Under the pieces are notes generated by a model, which had not been told where the DNA came from, made no database searches, and worked only from the letters and a program-made list of their open reading frames with translations. Of a stretch of 37,335 bases of DNA, positions 19,157 to 28,157 are shown one piece after another. Position 1 is the first letter of the stretch. Each line of letters begins with the position of its first letter. The position numbers were made by a program, and so were the translations under genes. The stretch comes from Bacillota bacterium (GTDB lineage Bacteria; Bacillota; DTU025): assembly GCA_028709305.1 (NCBI GenBank), contig JAQVXE010000012.1:1-37335 (forward strand), written 5' to 3'.

Positions 19157-21226
19157 GTGTCTTCAGGAATGAGCGTTGTGGGTCTGAAAAGGAAGCTCAG
19201 AGACTCCAAACTGTGGATCTTGCCCATCTACCTTTTTTTGATCATATTCGTCATCTTCCCCTTGGTGAGGCTTTTCATTGACTCATTCACAACTGCAGAC
19301 ATACAGCTTTCGGCATTGAACGAGGTAGCGCTCACCACTGATCTGCTTGAGGAGAAGGTAAATGCAGGTGAAATGGGGGAGGCGTTAGCAGCCGCCCATG
19401 ACATTGCGCTTCAGTTGAATAGATCCATAGACGTAGTTGGACAGATGATCGATGCACTGGGCAGGGCCACGTTCTCTCAACACGAGCTCATAGCCGAGTG
19501 GCAGGAAGCCCAGGACAAGGTGGCTCAGGAAGCGGCCGCTATGGCCGAACTTCAGGAAGACCCAGTAGCCGCCCTGGCACAAGCGCGCAAGTCAAAGGCG
19601 CTGGTGCATGAGATAGTCCGCCTGCCGCGGCGGGCATTTTCGGTAGATTTCTTCCTGGATGTATTCAGAGATAGGCTGTACATGAAGGCGCTGGGCAATT
19701 CTCTTCTGCTAGGGCTTGCCACAGTCGCCACAACGTCAGTGATCGGATTTGCCGTGGCCTATCTGCTTGTCAGATATGATTTCCCCGGAAGGAAAGCCTA
19801 CAATTTCCTTACCACGATTCCCATAGTGATGCCTCCTCTAGTGGGCGTTTTGGGATTCATCTTCATATTGGGCAGGGGCGGCACAGTCAATGAGCTGTTC
19901 TATCAGTTGGCGGATGCCCTGGAGAAATCCTGGCCGGCCGTGTCGAATTGGCTCTACGACCGCCTGCCGTTTAACTTCATCTACGGCTGGCACGGGCTTT
20001 TGCTGGTGGAAACATGCCACCTATTCCCGCTTATCACACTCAATGTTGTGGACTCACTCAGCAAGATAGATGCATCTTTGGAGGAAGCTGCTGAAAGCGT
20101 CGGATCAGTTGGTTTCAAGCGTCTGTTCGATGTTACCATCCCCCTGACTATACCGGGATTTGTTACAGGGGCGCTATTGGTATTCATCGGAGCTTTTGCG
20201 GATTTCGCAGCCCCCATGGTTGTAGGCTTGACTAACTTCATTGCTCCCCTGGCCTACATGGACATCCAGCAGTTCACTGACAGGCATCTGTTCAAGATGG
20301 GCATTACGGTGGGCGCTGTCATGGTCCTGATTTCCGTAGGTTTGCTGTTGATAGCCAAGAGATACATATCTCTCAAGGACTACACTACGCTCTCATACAA
20401 AGCAGTCGAGAGGAAGCCGCTTAAGGGCGCGAAACAGGCATGGGCCCATGTGTTCCTGATCTTGCTGCTGATCATCAGCTATACTCCGTATCTAGGCGTT
20501 GGGCTTGCGTCATTCGCCCGGAGTTGGTCAATGTCACCGCTTCCTACCTCTTGGACGCTGGCGCACTATGAGAAGATTCTGCTCTATGCGCCCGGGTATA
20601 TCATCAACACGTTCCAATTCTGTATACTGGCTGTTCTCATGTGCATACTGATAGGCCTGCCAGTAGCATGGGTTATGGCCAGAACAGATCTGCGCAGCCG
20701 CGGAGCGCTGGACATTCTGACTACACTCGTTTTAGCCTTGCCCGGAACTGCATTGGGCATAGCCTATATTAGGGCCTTCAACATGCCGATACTCTTTAGC
20801 ACGCCCCTGGCGAATATCTGGATCATAATCCCCATTGTACTGGCTGTCAGAAGGTTGCCATATACTGTCCGCTCGTCATACGGCTCTCTCCTGGTGGTGC
20901 ACCGTTCTATGGAGGAGGCAGCCCAGTCTGTGGGGGCGGGAGGGCTCAAGACATTCAAGGATGTGACCTTCCCGCTGATCTGGAAGGGAGTGCTGGCAGG
21001 TGCGCTTTTCTCCTTCATGACATCAATTCAGGAGAGTGCGGCCACACTGCTTCTAGCCATACCTGGTTGGGAGACTATGACCGTGGGCATATTCACTTTC
21101 TATACAGGAGGAACTCACGGAGACGCCGCCGCGTTGGGATTCATCTTGATTGTGGTAGGCGTGATCACATTGTTCGTAATGGATAGGCTGACCAGCGCCA
21201 CCACATCGGGTGGCTTGTTCGGCTAG
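19157..21226 (+). CDS. ABC transporter permease, fused double domain, with an extra periplasmic coiled segment
   Basis: The 689-residue protein contains two binding-protein-dependent permease domains in one chain, as in FbpB/AfuB-type iron importers. Each half has an EAA loop: EEAAESVGSVGFKRLFDVTIPL in the first, matched in the second by EEAAQSVGAGGLKTFKDVTF. About twelve membrane helices are expected. Between the first helix (18-42) and the core lies an extra stretch of about 110 residues (48-158), rich in Ala, Glu and Gln, that should form an extracytoplasmic coiled coil; ordinary FbpB proteins have only a short loop there. The GTG start has AGGTGA seven bases upstream. It ends the importer operon. 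Confidence 0.92.
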   Translation: MSSGMSVVGLKRKLRDSKLWILPIYLFLIIFVIFPLVRLFIDSFTTADIQLSALNEVALTTDLLEEKVNAGEMGEALAAAHDIALQLNRSIDVVGQMIDALGRATFSQHELIAEWQEAQDKVAQEAAAMAELQEDPVAALAQARKSKALVHEIVRLPRRAFSVDFFLDVFRDRLYMKALGNSLLLGLATVATTSVIGFAVAYLLVRYDFPGRKAYNFLTTIPIVMPPLVGVLGFIFILGRGGTVNELFYQLADALEKSWPAVSNWLYDRLPFNFIYGWHGLLLVETCHLFPLITLNVVDSLSKIDASLEEAAESVGSVGFKRLFDVTIPLTIPGFVTGALLVFIGAFADFAAPMVVGLTNFIAPLAYMDIQQFTDRHLFKMGITVGAVMVLISVGLLLIAKRYISLKDYTTLSYKAVERKPLKGAKQAWAHVFLILLLIISYTPYLGVGLASFARSWSMSPLPTSWTLAHYEKILLYAPGYIINTFQFCILAVLMCILIGLPVAWVMARTDLRSRGALDILTTLVLALPGTALGIAYIRAFNMPILFSTPLANIWIIIPIVLAVRRLPYTVRSSYGSLLVVHRSMEEAAQSVGAGGLKTFKDVTFPLIWKGVLAGALFSFMTSIQESAATLLLAIPGWETMTVGIFTFYTGGTHGDAAALGFILIVVGVITLFVMDRLTSATTSGGLFG

Positions 21227-21535: not shown

Positions 21536-23332
21536 TTGAAGATGCGTACGCTGCAGGCCTTCACGATCCTCGCCGTTATTGCAGTTGCGGCTGCAGGGTT
21601 GCTGTTGCCCGTTGACATGGCTGTGAGGACTCGGCTTTCTTCGTCTTTTCCGCCGGCACCCGACTCGCGCGTAGTCACTGTGGAGGTTGATGACCGCGCT
21701 TTAGCTGCTTTCGGAAGATGGCCGTGGCCGAGGTCTCTCCTTGCCCAACTTGTGGGGAGAGTAGCTGAGGCAGGCCCTGCAGCTATTGGAGTGGACATTA
21801 TTCTGTCTGAACCGGATCCTAACGGGGCCGGTGATGCTCTTCTTGCGCAAATTATGGGCGAGTATGGGCGAGTGGTTCTTCCGATGCACGTTGAGTCATA
21901 CTCGCTTCCGCCTGAAGCGCAGCTATATGCCTCTTCAAGCCTTCCAGTCTACCCGGTTTCGGTTCTTGCGGACGGGGCTGCAGGAATCGGCCATGTCATC
22001 GTGGTTCCCGACTCGGATGCCGTTGTCCGCAGGGTTCCTATGGTTATTGGAACGCCTCAGGGTCTGTTTCGTGCATTCTCCTCTGAGGTAGTTCGTGTAG
22101 GTCTTGGCATTCCGGATCAGGAGGCGGGAATAGTCTTCCGCGGTGACCTGGACTCGACTTCGAGCGTAGCTCCTGCATTTCCTTTCCCATCCGCGGCGAG
22201 GCGCATGTCCGCAGTTGATCTTCTTGCAGATGACCGGCAAGGATTCTCCGTCGATCAGGAATTGAGCGGGAAATTCGTGCTCATCGGTGTGACAGCCAAG
22301 GGGATTGGCGACAGGCATCAGACTCCGGTCTCGGCAAGGATTGGTGCGATGCCAGGCCTGTTGATACATGCAGCTGCGGTCGATGCGATGCTTTCCGGAG
22401 TTGCGATTCGTTCGGTCTCGCCGGGCACCGCTTTTGTGGCGATTGCCCTCACGGGGATAGTGCTCTCTGTAGCAAATGGGGCAATGAGGCGTCGGGAACC
22501 ACATATCGTAGCTTTTGTCGCTATGCACTTCTGTGCGGCTTGGGCGGCTGTAGCGATCTCGGTGATCCTTTACGTGGATTATGCCATTTGGATAGGGCCT
22601 AGTCCATTCGTGCTTCTGTCTATTGGATTGCTAGGAGCTGAGCTTTACGCTTCGGGTGCCCGCGGCCGGAAGTTCAAGGCAGCGCTCAGCCGGTATGTGG
22701 GGATGGACTCTCCAGAGCAGGCGAAGATGGAGGTTGCTGCGGGCACTCAGAAGATGGCTGTGATGTTTGTGGATCTTAGGGGTTGGAGCGCTGCATCTCA
22801 CGGCCTAGATCCGGTTCGTGCTGCGGATATGGTAAATGAGTACCTATCGGCGTTTGCTGATGCCGTGATTGAATGCGGAGGGACCATCGAGGGTTTTCCG
22901 GGAGATGCGGTCTTTGCCGTCTTTGAAGGACGTGGGTGTGAGGACATAGCGCGTGCAGTGTTGGCTGCTACTCGCGTCCGTGATATTGCCAGGAGAATAG
23001 CACAGGAGAAAAACGGTGGACAGGTGGGCTCAGATTCTCTGCGCGGGATTGGTGTAGGCATTGCCTATGGGGATGTTGCAAGAGCTGAGCTTGGCGGGCG
23101 TCGGCGTGCTGAGTTTACAGTCGTCGGTGCCACTGTGAACACTGCGAAAGCTCTTGAGGACGCGGCAGCTGAAGGGCAGATACTCGTGGGGATTCCAGCC
23201 GATTGCGCGGAGGAGGAGATATTGGCCGCGGCGGGATCAGAGGAGCTTGGTCAAACTACTCGTTACAGGCCTTGGCAGGGTACTGTGGCCAAGGTTCAGT
23301 CTGGCAGTGTCGGAGTGTTCGAGGTTTTGTGA
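21536..23332 (+). CDS. CHASE2-domain class III nucleotide cyclase with altered active site
   Basis: The 598-residue protein has an N-terminal membrane helix, an extracytoplasmic CHASE2 domain (about 40-290, including AAIGVDIILSEPD), three further membrane helices (about 297-370) and a cytoplasmic class III cyclase domain (about 405-550). The two metal Asp are present: D413 in FVDLRGW and D457 in FPGDAVF. The Lys expected four residues before the second Asp is Gly453. In VGATVNTAKALE the Asn (535) is kept, but the transition-state Arg four residues later is Ala539, with Lys538 beside it. It may be weak, shifted in mechanism, or inactive. The start is a TTG at 21536 or the ATG at 21542. It precedes FecR and CRP-type genes on the same strand. 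Confidence 0.85.
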   Translation: MKMRTLQAFTILAVIAVAAAGLLLPVDMAVRTRLSSSFPPAPDSRVVTVEVDDRALAAFGRWPWPRSLLAQLVGRVAEAGPAAIGVDIILSEPDPNGAGDALLAQIMGEYGRVVLPMHVESYSLPPEAQLYASSSLPVYPVSVLADGAAGIGHVIVVPDSDAVVRRVPMVIGTPQGLFRAFSSEVVRVGLGIPDQEAGIVFRGDLDSTSSVAPAFPFPSAARRMSAVDLLADDRQGFSVDQELSGKFVLIGVTAKGIGDRHQTPVSARIGAMPGLLIHAAAVDAMLSGVAIRSVSPGTAFVAIALTGIVLSVANGAMRRREPHIVAFVAMHFCAAWAAVAISVILYVDYAIWIGPSPFVLLSIGLLGAELYASGARGRKFKAALSRYVGMDSPEQAKMEVAAGTQKMAVMFVDLRGWSAASHGLDPVRAADMVNEYLSAFADAVIECGGTIEGFPGDAVFAVFEGRGCEDIARAVLAATRVRDIARRIAQEKNGGQVGSDSLRGIGVGIAYGDVARAELGGRRRAEFTVVGATVNTAKALEDAAAEGQILVGIPADCAEEEILAAAGSEELGQTTRYRPWQGTVAKVQSGSVGVFEVL

Positions 23333-23370
23333 GATAGATCACTGAGTTTGCTGATGGACAACGATATTCT
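23328..23370 (+). promoter_or_regulatory. Candidate CRP-type site and class II promoter upstream of the fecR-crp genes
   Basis: TGTGA-N6-TCACT (23328-23343) matches nine of ten bases of the CRP consensus and overlaps the cyclase stop codon. A TATTCT (23365-23370) would place transcription start near 23377, putting the site centre at about -41.5, the class II activator position. The -35 is poor, as expected for an activator-dependent promoter. The geometry is my inference; the sequence match is direct. Confidence 0.45.
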
Positions 23371-23436
23371 GTAAAAGGGGAATTTTACTCTTCATAGACG
23401 ACCAGAGCTCAAATGGCCATTGGGGGTGATTGCCAA

Positions 23437-24333
23437 ATGAGTATCAGAGCAGAAGCTGTCCCTAAGTTGGCACGCAGGACATTGGCATTGTTTGTGTTTT
23501 TCTTGTTAGCGGTCATAACGGGCATGGGCCGAGGCAGTGCAGGGTCAGAAGATAGTGGACGTGGATATGCTTGCCTGGTCGAGAAGGTGTCAGGTGTTGT
23601 ATGGTGGAGGCAGCCGCGTTCTTCCGGCGACACCACATGTAGGCGGCTCGAGGCCGGGATGATGCTGCGGCCGGGATGCCGGATCAAGACGGGGAAAACC
23701 AGTCGGGCACTCCTGACTCTTGTGGATGGTACAACTGTGTCGATTGGGCACGATACCTATCTGATAATAGGGCCTGCTGGCCTTGAAAGCGTAGAGTCAA
23801 CCTCTGCTGACTTGGCCGTTCCCCAGTTAAGGATGCTTATTGGGCGAATATGGCTTGAGGTGACGAAAAGGTTTCAATTGGGCTGGGGGTTTGAAGTGGA
23901 GACGCCTTCGTCCACCGTTGCGGTGAGGGGAACTGCTTTCGACGTTGAAGTGGACGAAGAAGGAACCACCTATGTTTGGGTAGATTCCGGCGAGGTCGTT
24001 GTGGAGAATGAAGGTGGCTCTCTAGTGGTTGAACCGGGCAAGTCCGGGAAGGCGAAGAAGGGATTGCCTCCTGAGGCGGCTGAACCTGCCCGGGAAAGGC
24101 AGACCCAACGGCCGGAATGGGCTGGGCAGCCTGGAAAGCCCCCTCATGCTGGGCAACCCGGCGGACCGAACGGGCCGCACCCAAATGACGATTGGCCACC
24201 GGGAAAGGGTGTGGGCAACAAGAAACCGGGCCAGATGCCACCTGGACTGAAGAAGAAGGAAGAGAACAAGCCGAAAGAGCCAGATGGGGGAGGTGGCAGC
24301 AGTAGTCGATGGAAAGAACCAGAAAAGGTTTGA
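23437..24333 (+). CDS. Secreted FecR-domain protein with Pro/Gly/Lys-rich tail
   Basis: The protein of about 298 residues has an N-terminal signal or membrane helix (LALFVFFLLAVITGM) and a FecR domain (about 45-215). The domain shows LEAGMMLRPGCRIKTGKTSRALLTLVDGT-like spacing and PSSTVAVRGTAFDVEV, which is the hallmark of the family. The final 80 residues are disordered, rich in Pro, Gly and Lys. FecR domains outside TonB systems occur in secreted or membrane-tethered proteins of unclear function. I start at the ATG at 23437, seven bases after GGGTGA, rather than at 23413. The 3' end overlaps the CRP-type gene, and a CRP-like site lies upstream. Confidence 0.82.
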   Translation: MSIRAEAVPKLARRTLALFVFFLLAVITGMGRGSAGSEDSGRGYACLVEKVSGVVWWRQPRSSGDTTCRRLEAGMMLRPGCRIKTGKTSRALLTLVDGTTVSIGHDTYLIIGPAGLESVESTSADLAVPQLRMLIGRIWLEVTKRFQLGWGFEVETPSSTVAVRGTAFDVEVDEEGTTYVWVDSGEVVVENEGGSLVVEPGKSGKAKKGLPPEAAEPARERQTQRPEWAGQPGKPPHAGQPGGPNGPHPNDDWPPGKGVGNKKPGQMPPGLKKKEENKPKEPDGGGGSSSRWKEPEKV

Positions 24334-25003
24334 GACAGCCGATGATCAGATAGCTCAGGCACTGCAAAGTTGCGCCCTATTTGAGGGTATGGGCCCTGAG
24401 GCGATGAATACGCTTGTTCGGGGAGCCTCCCTTAGAGATGTACCAAAGGGCGGCATTCTCTTTCTCCAGGACGATGAAAGCTATGAGGTGTACGTTGTTG
24501 TATCAGGAAGAATCAGGCTTTACCGGATGTCTCCGGACGGGGCGGAAAAAACCCTTGCCGTGCACGGAGACTACGAAGTCTTTGGCGATCTGGCGGCCAT
24601 AGATGGATTGGCTAGGTCAGCTGTTGCTGAATCCATGACTGATTCAGCGGTTGTCGAGATTCAGCGCGATGCGTTCATTACGTGTCTCCAGGGAAGCTGG
24701 GATCTGTCGGAAAGGTTCATGAAGAAGCTTGCTCGAATGTTGCGAGAGACGGACGAGAGTCTGGATCTTTTAGCATTTGCAAGCGCCAAAGCTCGGGTTT
24801 CGTCAACTTTGGCAAGAAACAGTGACCAGTGCGGGCGTGTGATGGGTCTTACGCATCGCGATATTGCTGCTATGGCTTCAACTTCCAGAGAGACGGTTAG
24901 CCGGGTCATTGGAGACTTGGTAGATTCCGGACTGGTGGCTGTGGATGATGAAGGCTATTCCATTATCGACATGGAAGGGCTCATGGAGCTGAGCAGTTTG
25001 TGA
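24284..25003 (+). CDS. CRP/FNR family transcription regulator
   Basis: The 239-residue protein has a cyclic-nucleotide-binding beta roll (about 28-130), a long dimer helix (about 138-165) and a winged helix. The phosphate-binding cassette reads FGDLAAIDGLARSA: G101, D102 in place of the usual Glu, and R111-S112. So it could bind a cyclic nucleotide. The recognition helix TSRETVSRVIG gives R202, E203 and R207, the same RExxxR set by which E. coli CRP reads TGTGA. No FNR-type cysteine cluster is evident. The ATG at 24284 overlaps the fecR gene by 50 bases and has a weak GAG upstream; the exact start is uncertain. CRP-like sites occur upstream of fecR and of the divergent gene at 25912. Confidence 0.9.
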   Translation: MGEVAAVVDGKNQKRFETADDQIAQALQSCALFEGMGPEAMNTLVRGASLRDVPKGGILFLQDDESYEVYVVVSGRIRLYRMSPDGAEKTLAVHGDYEVFGDLAAIDGLARSAVAESMTDSAVVEIQRDAFITCLQGSWDLSERFMKKLARMLRETDESLDLLAFASAKARVSSTLARNSDQCGRVMGLTHRDIAAMASTSRETVSRVIGDLVDSGLVAVDDEGYSIIDMEGLMELSSL

Positions 25004-25228
25004 TGAAAAAAAGGGCAGTAGAGGAGGAGCCTATTCATACTGTGTCTTTTTGAGCGGGTGTGCCAGGAGATTAGGGTCACAACTGCACTTGCATGAGCGC
25101 AATGGTCTGAAGGCATCACGCGGTTTAGCGCATATGGTCTGGCACTTGCAGCGATGTAAGCAGTTGAATCAGGTCTGTATTAGTTGTTCCTCTTCCTGCC
25201 CAAGATAGATATCTAGCTTAGTCCGGCA

Positions 25229-25912
25229 CTACTTGTTCCCTTTGCCCTTCCCCTTTCCCTTTCCGGGATTATCGGGCTTGTCTTTCTTCGGTTTCTTTGC
25301 ATCTGAGTCTTTGTCGGGCTTTCCCCCTGTATGCTCAGGGTCATGCCCATAAGCATTGCCACGGGGCCCCTTGCCTTCTAGCGCCTCTTCAACCTCTTTG
25401 CCGTTGCCCTTCCATAGCAGGCCTTTCTTGCCCATCACAGCCGACACGGCTTGTCCCAGATTTTCTGCTTCCGTGTCAACTGACTTGGCAATCTCTCCCC
25501 AACCCATTCCGCCGGCGGCCATTGCCAGCACATCTTCGAAAGGAACGGTGGAGTCGGCGGCTATTACTGAGCATATGACCAAATCTCCAAGGCCCCAGCC
25601 CTCATCGAAATGGGCCTGAAGTTGCTCAACTGTGATCTCCAGCTCAGGGAAGGCAGCCACGATACGCGCGAAGAATTCAGTCTTGTCCGCCCCAATCTCC
25701 GGATCTTCCGGATCTTCTGGGTCTTCTGGGTCTTCTGGGTCCCCTGGTGGATCCTCTGGTGGATCAGCCGGCGGATCCTCTGGCGGATCTTCTGGTGGTT
25801 CGTCCGGAGGGTCCTCTTGGGTGATTTCCAGTGCCAGGCACGGTGCTGCGGCTGATAGGCTGATGGCGATGACCAGCGCTAACGCCAGCATGTGAATCCA
25901 TTTCCTATGCAA
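25229..25912 (-). CDS. Secreted protein with Pro/Asp/Glu repeat and WGEIA helical domain
   Basis: The protein of about 227 residues begins with a signal peptide (HMLALALVIAISLSAAAPCLA). A low-complexity acidic run of DPP/EDP units comes next (about 40 residues). A helical domain containing two related half-motifs follows: EGWGLGDLVICSVIA and GMGWGEIAKSV. The tail is a Lys/Gly-rich KGKGKGKGNK. Domains with repeated W-G-x-I/L motifs occur in secreted Bacillota proteins, but I know no function. The TTG start at 25912 has AGGAGG nine bases upstream and suits the signal peptide; the longer frame to 25942 does not. It is divergent from the TPR gene at 26271, and a perfect CRP-type site lies about 87 bases upstream. 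Confidence 0.75.
   Translation of the reverse strand: MHRKWIHMLALALVIAISLSAAAPCLALEITQEDPPDEPPEDPPEDPPADPPEDPPGDPEDPEDPEDPEDPEIGADKTEFFARIVAAFPELEITVEQLQAHFDEGWGLGDLVICSVIAADSTVPFEDVLAMAAGGMGWGEIAKSVDTEAENLGQAVSAVMGKKGLLWKGNGKEVEEALEGKGPRGNAYGHDPEHTGGKPDKDSDAKKPKKDKPDNPGKGKGKGKGNK
25697..25816. repeat. Tandem codon repeat encoding the Pro/Asp/Glu run
   Basis: Nine- and twelve-base units related to GGATCTTCTGGT and GGGTCTTCT repeat across 120 bases inside the gene. Units of the two lengths form separate blocks, so the number of DPP and EDP units is probably prone to change by slippage. Confidence 0.7.
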
Positions 25913-26270
25913 GATGTCACACCTCCTGAGACTTTGGCGCATTGAGCGTCAACTACACTTGCTTCTGGTGAAAGTCTATCAAATGCTTGCTTGAAGCTAT
26001 GTGATGCTGGTCACATCGACAGGAAGGTTTGGCAGGATGCTGAAGTCACCAACATATGCTCATACGGAGGGAAGACGCTGAACCCTTGCTCAATTGGGCG
26101 ATGCAGAGATTCAACAGCTTGCTCCGGCGCTTTGTTTCGCGCCGGCTTGGACATGTTAATGGTCACACAGGCCTCCCATTGTCGTGGAGGACACGTGGCG
26201 GGGATTGCCAGAACTCATAGGATAATGTTAAACATCCAGCTTGCTCTGGTGAGGATAGGAGGCGAATTGG
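25913..26270. other. Divergent control region of the WGEIA-protein and TPR genes
   Basis: These 358 bases hold the perfect CRP-type site at 25999-26016 and no gene I can support. On the minus strand TTGATA (25977-25982) and TGTAGT (25952-25957) form a weak promoter with a 19-base spacer. If it is used, the site centre would lie near -61.5, the class I position. A plus-strand frame from 25991 to 26350 overlaps the TPR gene and has no family features. Confidence 0.45.
25999..26016. promoter_or_regulatory. Perfect CRP-type operator ATGTGA-N6-TCACAT
   Basis: ATGTGA (25999-26004) and TCACAT (26011-26016) form an exact dyad around six bases and match the E. coli CRP consensus at every defined position. 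The CRP/FNR gene one kilobase away has the matching RExxxR recognition helix. The site lies between divergent genes and could control either or both. Confidence 0.65.
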
Positions 26271-28157
26271 GTGAAGGGCCCAGAAGATGCAGACAGAATT
26301 TGCGAAGAGGCAAGGAGGTTGATGGAGGAGGGTTATTTCAAGGAGGCTGAGGATCTGTTTAGCGGAGCTTTTGGAATTGCCCCCAAGCCCGCTTCCCTCA
26401 ACAACTGGGCGGTTTGCAGGTTCTACCAGGGCGACCCTGAGGGGACGCTTCAAATTCTCAAGCCCAACCTGGCAAGCAGTGGCCTTGCGCCGTTCGCGTG
26501 GGCTCTTGCTGCCCGGGCATACGCCGTGCTAGGCCGGAATGATGAAGCGCTGAAGCATCTTAATAGGGCAATTGCAGATTTCGAAGAGGGGCTGAAAAGG
26601 CTTGGTCCCCTAGACCGTGGCGAAACGAAAACGTGGCGGGAGTACACTGTGATACTGAAGCAAGCTGCTGGGGAGATAGGTAAGGCCCGGCTGGTTATCG
26701 ACCTGTACCGTCGCCACGAACCTCATCACGTGACAGTGGGAGACAGATACCTTGCGGGAGTGGCAGCCTTCAACCTTGGCTGCATGGATCAGGCGATATC
26801 GCTCTGGTCGGAACTTCCCCGGCTTGAGTTCGAGGTCATAGATAGGTACATAGATGTGGCCTGCAATATTGAAGCGGGCGTACTTCCGAAGTTTCAGCTT
26901 GAGTACTCCTTCCCCAGCCGCGAGCAGCTGGGGAATATTGAGAGCGCGGAAGATGTGGCTGAGATGACGCGCATCGGTTCGGTGCGAATGATCTTTCTCT
27001 CTAGCCTCCTGGATTCGGACGCCGCACCCTTGGATTTTGACGATGCCCTAGGCCAACTCGACATCGTGATGGAGGGGGATGCGGAATGGGGGATTCAACT
27101 GGCAGAGAGTCTTCTTGCCCATCCGGGAGCCGGCAGGGAGCTCAGGGCGGCTGCCGCCGCTGTGTTGACGCAAGCCGGCATCTACTCGCCTGGGGAACCA
27201 ATAAACATTGTGGATGAAGATGGAACTGAGAGTCAGATAATCGTCGAGTCCCATAAGATATCGTTGGAGGCTACACTCCACTCAGCAGGTGCCCTGTTCA
27301 GAGCCTCGAAGCTCATCTATGAGAAGGAGTATGACAAGGCACTCGCTACGCTCTTTGCTGTTTTGGAAGGGGATGAGGTGGACTACAGGATATATCTTGC
27401 GATAGCCACGGCGCAGATGGGCAAGGGCAATCTGGATGAAGCTACGGATATCTTGATGATGCTAGAGACCATAGTCCCCGGACACCCGCTTATCCTGCTG
27501 AAGCTGGCAGAAGCATGCTTGCAGCGAGGGGAGGCGGACGAGGCTTCGGGTTTCCTTGACCGAATAGACGCAACGAAGGAAGGACCGGCGCTGAAGGGAG
27601 CGGTCGACGCAATGAGACACAGGATAGAGCTGGATCGATTCCGACCGGGCGAGCTCGGAAGGGAGTATGCCGAGCTGCTGCGTGCCAGACAAGAGAAGAA
27701 GATGATGTCGGTCAACGCAAAGCTGTCGCAGGTCCTGAGGAACATACCAGTCCAATGGCTCAATGGAGCTTGCATTGCCCATGGCATTGGGCCAAGGAAG
27801 TATTCCAGACGCAAGGAACGGGCAGAAGAACTGGAACGGTTGCTCATTGACACGACCGCACCACACAGAGCGTTTGCCCATCTCAGTGGGGATGAGCTGG
27901 ATCTTCTGAGGTTTCTGATGGGAATGGGCGGGTGGGCCAGGCTGTCAGAGGTAGTCCGAGAATTCGGATCCATGGAAGGGGATGGGTGTTGGTGGAACGA
28001 GAATCCCCCCAGGTCAACGCTGGGAAAGCTTGTGCGTAGGGCTTTTGCGGCGATTGGCTTGTCGAAAGTAGACGGGGAGCTGACTGAGGTGGTTGCCGTA
28101 CCCTTGGACCTTAGGCCCATGGCTGCCGAATACGTGAATCGAGCGAAGCTCGAGTAG
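26271..28157 (+). CDS. Large TPR-repeat protein of unknown function
   Basis: The 628-residue protein is built of TPR-like helical pairs at the N-terminus (about 1-120: EEGYFKEAEDLFSGAFGIAP, ALAARAYAVLGRNDEALKHLNRAI) and again at about 335-440 (YDKALATLFAVLEGDEV, GNLDEATDILMMLE). A different helical domain follows (about 475-628), including LSGDELDLLRFLMGMGGW. No signal peptide or membrane helix is seen, so it is probably a cytosolic scaffold or regulator. The GTG start has AGGAGG eight bases upstream. It is related in plan to the second TPR protein at 30644, with the cysE-cysK operon between them. I do not recognise the C-terminal domain. Confidence 0.8.
   Translation: MKGPEDADRICEEARRLMEEGYFKEAEDLFSGAFGIAPKPASLNNWAVCRFYQGDPEGTLQILKPNLASSGLAPFAWALAARAYAVLGRNDEALKHLNRAIADFEEGLKRLGPLDRGETKTWREYTVILKQAAGEIGKARLVIDLYRRHEPHHVTVGDRYLAGVAAFNLGCMDQAISLWSELPRLEFEVIDRYIDVACNIEAGVLPKFQLEYSFPSREQLGNIESAEDVAEMTRIGSVRMIFLSSLLDSDAAPLDFDDALGQLDIVMEGDAEWGIQLAESLLAHPGAGRELRAAAAAVLTQAGIYSPGEPINIVDEDGTESQIIVESHKISLEATLHSAGALFRASKLIYEKEYDKALATLFAVLEGDEVDYRIYLAIATAQMGKGNLDEATDILMMLETIVPGHPLILLKLAEACLQRGEADEASGFLDRIDATKEGPALKGAVDAMRHRIELDRFRPGELGREYAELLRARQEKKMMSVNAKLSQVLRNIPVQWLNGACIAHGIGPRKYSRRKERAEELERLLIDTTAPHRAFAHLSGDELDLLRFLMGMGGWARLSEVVREFGSMEGDGCWWNENPPRSTLGKLVRRAFAAIGLSKVDGELTEVVAVPLDLRPMAAEYVNRAKLE

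Follow-up and report, generated by a model that had tools for sequence, protein, structure and literature searches.

Organization of the locus

The window analysed here, the whole stretch of 37,335 nucleotides, is one contig (C69) of a source genome (G000) of 2.38 Mb that is 97% complete. Within it lie three genes that the first-pass annotation had described as consecutive and as encoding a membrane cyclase, a FecR-domain protein and a CRP-type regulator. Pfam domains and reading of the open reading frames bear out this description, with the three genes adjoining in that order on the + strand. The first gene (21542..23332, +; the frame opens with a TTG at 21536 and has an ATG at 21542) encodes a membrane sensor that joins a CHASE2 domain (162.9 bits, E 1e-47, cut-off 26.3) to a class III nucleotidyl cyclase domain (Guanylate_cyc, 30 bits, E 5e-7, cut-off 21.9). 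Its solved relatives, by PDB matches, are Cya2, CyaB and CyaC, and it is the sole class III cyclase found in the source genome. The second gene (23413..24333, +) encodes the FecR-domain protein (PF04773, 53.3 bits against a cut-off of 24, E 4e-14), in which a hydrophobic, signal-like N-terminal stretch was judged by eye; its more likely start, from the sequence, is the ATG at 23437 behind GGGGGTG. The 3' end of this gene overlaps by 50 nt the 5' end of the third (24284..25003, +), whose product carries cNMP_binding (E 3e-18) and HTH_Crp_2 (E 1e-13) domains and has 4ev0 and the CRP of M. tuberculosis as its nearest solved relatives. Locus comparison shows the three-gene module to be kept in two families of the same class and in further families.

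Convergent to this operon lies a gene for a predicted secreted protein, PPED (25229..25912, −), whose likely start is the TTG at 25912 behind AGGAGG. Two candidate CRP operators accompany the four genes, each at the position given in the first-pass annotation. Operator 1, TGTGAGATAGATCACT (23328..23343, +), is a 9/10 match that overlaps the stop codon of the cyclase gene, and is followed by a predicted -10 element, TATTCT (23365..23370, +), with a predicted transcription start for fecR-crp near 23377. Operator 2 is a perfect dyad, ATGTGACCAGCATCACAT (ATGTGATGCTGGTCACAT in locus reading; 25999..26016, −), and its predicted -10 element, TAGACT (25973..25978, −), belongs to a PPED promoter with a predicted start near 25966. 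Both sites had been assigned to the borders of the regulator gene. This placement does not hold for the dyad at 25999, which is separated from the regulator by the PPED gene and is an element of the PPED promoter. The TPR gene at 26271-28157 was also considered as a target of this dyad and was rejected, as no -10 element lies at the required spacing on that side and the adjacency recurs only in G002.

Elsewhere in the window, a 689 aa ABC permease (19157-21226) contains two BPD_transp_1 stretches, as of two permeases fused, together with an additional helical-looking stretch near its N-terminus.

Promoter geometry and its conservation

In both window promoters, a TAnnnT hexamer lies exactly 21 nt past the 16-mer, which places the -10 element at -12 to -7 and the centre of the dyad at -41.5. 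In the class II arrangement of E. coli CRP, the dyad is likewise centred at -41.5, and both window promoters share this geometry relative to their predicted transcription starts. All 8 sites of the class that were first examined show TAnnnT at exactly this distance from the dyad. Both G003 and G008 have one site between the cyclase and fecR genes and a second upstream of PPED, neither with more than one mismatch; the PPED-upstream site is also kept in G002, G004 and G007. When 12 whole genomes of the class were searched with the composite pattern GTGAN6TCAC-N22-TANNNT, 9 of the 11 matches were the module's two promoters, against 3 matches in total for the control. For each promoter region, the composite arises in only 0 to 0.00015 of Markov shuffles.

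Furthermore, the arrangement extends beyond the class and to unlinked genes. In family f51, the PPED genes of G059, G097, G131, G186 and G210 lie on contigs other than that of the cyclase locus, and in the promoters of all five the dyad has at most one mismatch and TAnnnT follows at the 21-nt spacing. These five genomes also have a site between the cyclase and fecR genes, where the -10 element is CAnnnT in four of them and AAACTA in G059. The PPED promoter of G078, from a different family, carries AGTGAGTTCCGTCACA with TATCCT, and that of G036 an exact dyad with CATGAT. Across the collected promoters, the second base of the -10 element is A in 23/23 and the last is T in 22/23; the sites in this set were picked by their dyad and not by the -10 element, with the exception of G004, which entered through the composite pattern, and the genomes within families are closely related, so that the counts are not independent. 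The first-pass annotation had regarded absence of the sites from relatives that keep the genes as grounds for abandoning the proposal; instead, both the sites and their spacing recur in such relatives.

The PPED-upstream site was not found in G012, G023 or G234, nor the fecR-upstream site in G012, G049, G226, G183, G157, G207 or G036. The fecR site is also missing from G007, because a transposase-like frame lies before fecR (L067:48-1472, directly upstream of the gene); the matching cyclase of this genome lies on a separate contig with its frame broken, and an insertion has seemingly divided the operon. In G004 (L072:1900-2900), the CRP gene is truncated and merges into the tail of PPED while the PPED promoter is intact, which may reflect a deletion or an assembly fault.

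The PPED protein

PPED consists of a signal-like N-terminus, an acidic Pro/Asp/Glu-rich stretch of the PPEDPPED type, a helical domain and a Gly/Lys-rich tail. Against Pfam and NCBIfam the protein gave no passing match. Structure prediction gives a compact helical domain with a pLDDT of about 90, for which a fold search returned no solved match (best E 1.1). Homologues of the domain occur in 17/299 sampled genomes of the phylum; matches in G020, G082 and G218 cover the low-complexity stretch only and were dropped. A CHASE2-cyclase is present in 13 of the 17 PPED genomes as opposed to 24 of the 282 others, and in 7 of 8 families, counts that are not corrected for relatedness. The PPED relatives in f51 (L191, L192, L194, L196) seem to be longer and to contain two similar helical stretches, against one in the window PPED. 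PPED is perhaps an exported protein of the envelope or matrix.

A proposed local circuit

Together, the gene order, the promoter geometry and its conservation make it likely that the module forms a closed local circuit, in which the cyclase acts through a cyclic nucleotide and the CRP-type regulator on fecR-crp and PPED. The CHASE2 domain of the membrane cyclase would sense an extracellular signal, and the exported FecR-domain protein, which may modulate or anchor the sensor, would probably take part in this. The cytoplasmic cyclase domain would then produce a cyclic nucleotide that shifts the dimeric CRP-type regulator to its DNA-binding form. Bound to TGTGAN6TCACA at -41.5 of two promoters, a position that the sequence displays directly, the dimer would act as a class II activator and recruit RNA polymerase. 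One of the promoters, located where the cyclase gene ends, would drive fecR-crp, creating positive feedback, and the second would drive PPED, the putative output of the circuit, as a small secreted helical protein.

Catalytic site and receptor pocket

The proposal that cAMP is the messenger, as made in the first-pass annotation, was not supported as stated, since both the cyclase and the CRP pocket have lost canonical residues; on the residues, cAMP is an unproven candidate for the messenger of the circuit. An Asn-Arg pair normally serves the transition state in class III enzymes, and a Lys is usual in adenylyl cyclases (PMC4215837). Both metal-binding Asp residues and the transition-state Asn are present in every cyclase compared. 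In the window cyclase, however, the adenine Lys is replaced by Gly and the transition-state Arg by Ala, while the adenine-site Thr is kept. The canonical Lys/Arg combination of adenylyl cyclases is likewise lacking in G003 (Arg/Ala) and G008 (Lys/Ala), the Lys being lost in two of the three genera, and all three cyclases possess an invariant Lys one residue before the Arg-to-Ala position (NxAKALED). Among the compared relatives from other families, which are mostly canonical in both the cyclase and the CRP pocket, the Arg is departed from only in G207 (Leu) and G280 (Lys).

The receptor shows parallel changes. In the window CRP, R82, S83 and T127 are kept, but E72 has become Asp, R123 Met and S128 Asp. 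The R123 to Met change is found in 5/5 CRPs of the class and the E72 to Asp change in 4/5, with G008 as the exception, and neither occurs in the other 17 module CRPs.

These departures raise the possibility that the circuit exists as proposed but that in this class its messenger is not cAMP, the cyclase active site and the CRP pocket having shifted jointly to another cyclic nucleotide or another substrate. The variable adenine position (Gly, Arg or Lys), the replacement of Arg by Ala beside a new invariant Lys, and the confinement of the two receptor changes to the class are all in keeping with this explanation. The catalytic domain of the class cyclases is also better conserved than their CHASE2 sensor domain (62/57, 57/49 and 56/45 %). 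This speaks against decay and makes it probable, on sequence grounds, that the cyclase domain is functional. Nevertheless, residue changes by themselves do not prove a new ligand. R82, S83, T127 and the adenine-site Thr are kept, the cyclases lack the Glu that marks guanylyl cyclases, and only three class cyclases bear on the matter, one of which, that of G008, retains the Lys, its CRP retaining E72. We hold it possible, though less likely than not, that the pair switched second messenger or chemistry in one class, and the accompanying idea that promoters, operators and target were kept through such a switch is equally tentative.

It is less probable still, and on balance unlikely, that the cyclase domain is catalytically dead and the CRP nucleotide-independent, leaving the cyclase as a sensor, a scaffold or an idle protein. 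The loss of both Arg and Lys speaks for such an outcome, and catalysis by a cyclase that lacks the transition-state Arg is not assured. In addition, changes at position 72 were among those selected for activity of E. coli CRP in a cya-deleted strain (PMC6603298), and the PPED operator is kept in G004 despite the truncated CRP of that genome, itself maybe an assembly fault. Against this, the domain is well conserved, and neither the metal Asp pair nor the Asn varies. An atypical transition-state pair may moreover still be active, because the cyclase Ma1120 works with Ala in place of the Asn, and restoring the Asn lowered or abolished its activity (PMC4215837).

Recognition of the operators

The recognition helix of the regulator, SRETVSR, fits the RExxxR motif, as the first-pass annotation had recognised, and equivalents of R180, E181 and R185 are present. 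Work on HcpR links R180 to position three of the CRP-like motif (PMC1274295). In its domains, its RExxxR helix and the TGTGAN6TCACA at its own targets, where binding is predicted, the regulator is CRP-like. It is also the only protein found in G000 that matches the module CRP at E <=0.001 and the only one found there with a full-length HTH_Crp_2 domain.

These properties bear on whether the sites might be read by a different regulator of the CRP/FNR type, such as HcpR or an FNR-like protein, with the cyclase operon a mere bystander. HcpR does recognise the same type of sequence, wTGTGAnnnnnnTCACAw (PMC1274295), and in G049 a composite promoter precedes an hcp-like gene. However, the search of G000 yielded a single full-length CRP/FNR-type match, this regulator, and the crp operon is itself one of the targets. 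We thus regard a different reader as highly improbable, and the link between the module CRP and both sites as strongly supported.

The AT-rich genome G049 differs in having more sites and more CRP paralogues than the other genomes. Its composite promoters lie before the hcp-like gene and before another acidic secreted protein (L224, L226), which may point to a larger regulon or to multiple CRP-type readers. Apart from this genome, there are few composite matches beyond the module, and most of those inspected fall in coding sequence or lack a conserved target.

The mere presence of dyads is weak evidence, because genome counts sit near the chance level. Within the window, 3 matches with at most one mismatch were found as compared to 1.26 in shuffles, and 14/100 shuffles reach as many. 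Genome-wide, the scan for TGTGA-N6-TCACA that the first-pass annotation had recommended revealed no excess (3 exact matches, where about 2.3 would be expected by chance), the core GTGAN6TCAC gave 27 matches against 23 for its reversed control, and neither of the other two exact matches (C74, C164) has a -10 element at the required spacing. The earlier estimate that a window this size should hold 0.04 exact matches is correct as arithmetic (37335/4^10), but it is weak evidence in view of the shuffles and genome counts. A global CRP regulon was rejected on the same basis, the sites not being in excess over chance. That the dyads are chance resemblances to the E. coli consensus would suit these counts but is scarcely credible, since position, spacing and target are conserved across families, unlinked PPED genes included, and it is this conservation together with the promoter geometry that leads us to judge the dyads real.

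Significance and comparison with known systems

The module bears on whether Bacillota employ cyclic nucleotides, and for what. Adenylate cyclases have been reported absent in most Firmicutes, and cAMP was undetected in S. aureus (PMC5217690). The suggestion that control of this kind is rare in Bacillota agrees with that report, but is tempered by the presence of a CHASE2-cyclase in 37/299 sampled genomes of the phylum. The proposed circuit is compact and conserved, comprising a cyclase, a receptor and operators of its own along with one recurrent output, and could be rebuilt in a laboratory strain. It also provides a first lead on the unnamed PPED family of secreted proteins, and gives the FecR and CHASE2 partners a defined output at the level of transcription. 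Finally, the paired changes in the cyclase and the CRP could serve as a natural test of drift or ligand switching in a second-messenger pair.

Among known systems, the class II promoters of E. coli cAMP-CRP share with the module the TGTGAN6TCACA site at -41.5 with its -10 element, the RExxxR helix, and R82, S83 and T127. Unlike the global regulon of E. coli, that of the module is tiny and local, with two promoters found per genome; residues 72, 123 and 128 are altered, and the identity of the messenger is putative. Cya2, CyaB and CyaC have the same metal Asp pair and transition-state Asn, whereas in the window cyclase the adenine Lys and the transition-state Arg are replaced and a membrane CHASE2 sensor is present. 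HcpR and Crp2 share the operator consensus and R180 as a determinant of the motif; they regulate hcp and nitrogen-oxide genes, and an adjacent cyclase is not described in the available part of PMC1274295.

The BiofilmReg operon of Burkholderia encodes a COG4254 LysM-FecR protein, a CHASE2 histidine kinase and a response regulator (PMC5192318). There, as in the window, the gene for an extracytoplasmic CHASE2 sensor adjoins those for a transcription regulator and for a FecR-domain protein that is exported, but the output of BiofilmReg is phosphotransfer, while the module employs a cyclase and a CRP-type regulator. FecR genes also lie next to CHASE2 in several proteobacterial loci, and the CHASE2 sensor and FecR-domain protein are a recurring pair. 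A description of CHASE2, FecR and cyclase in one arrangement was not found in the open-access literature. The parts of the module are of known kinds, and what is new is their probable use in cyclic-nucleotide-CRP control with a closed local regulon.
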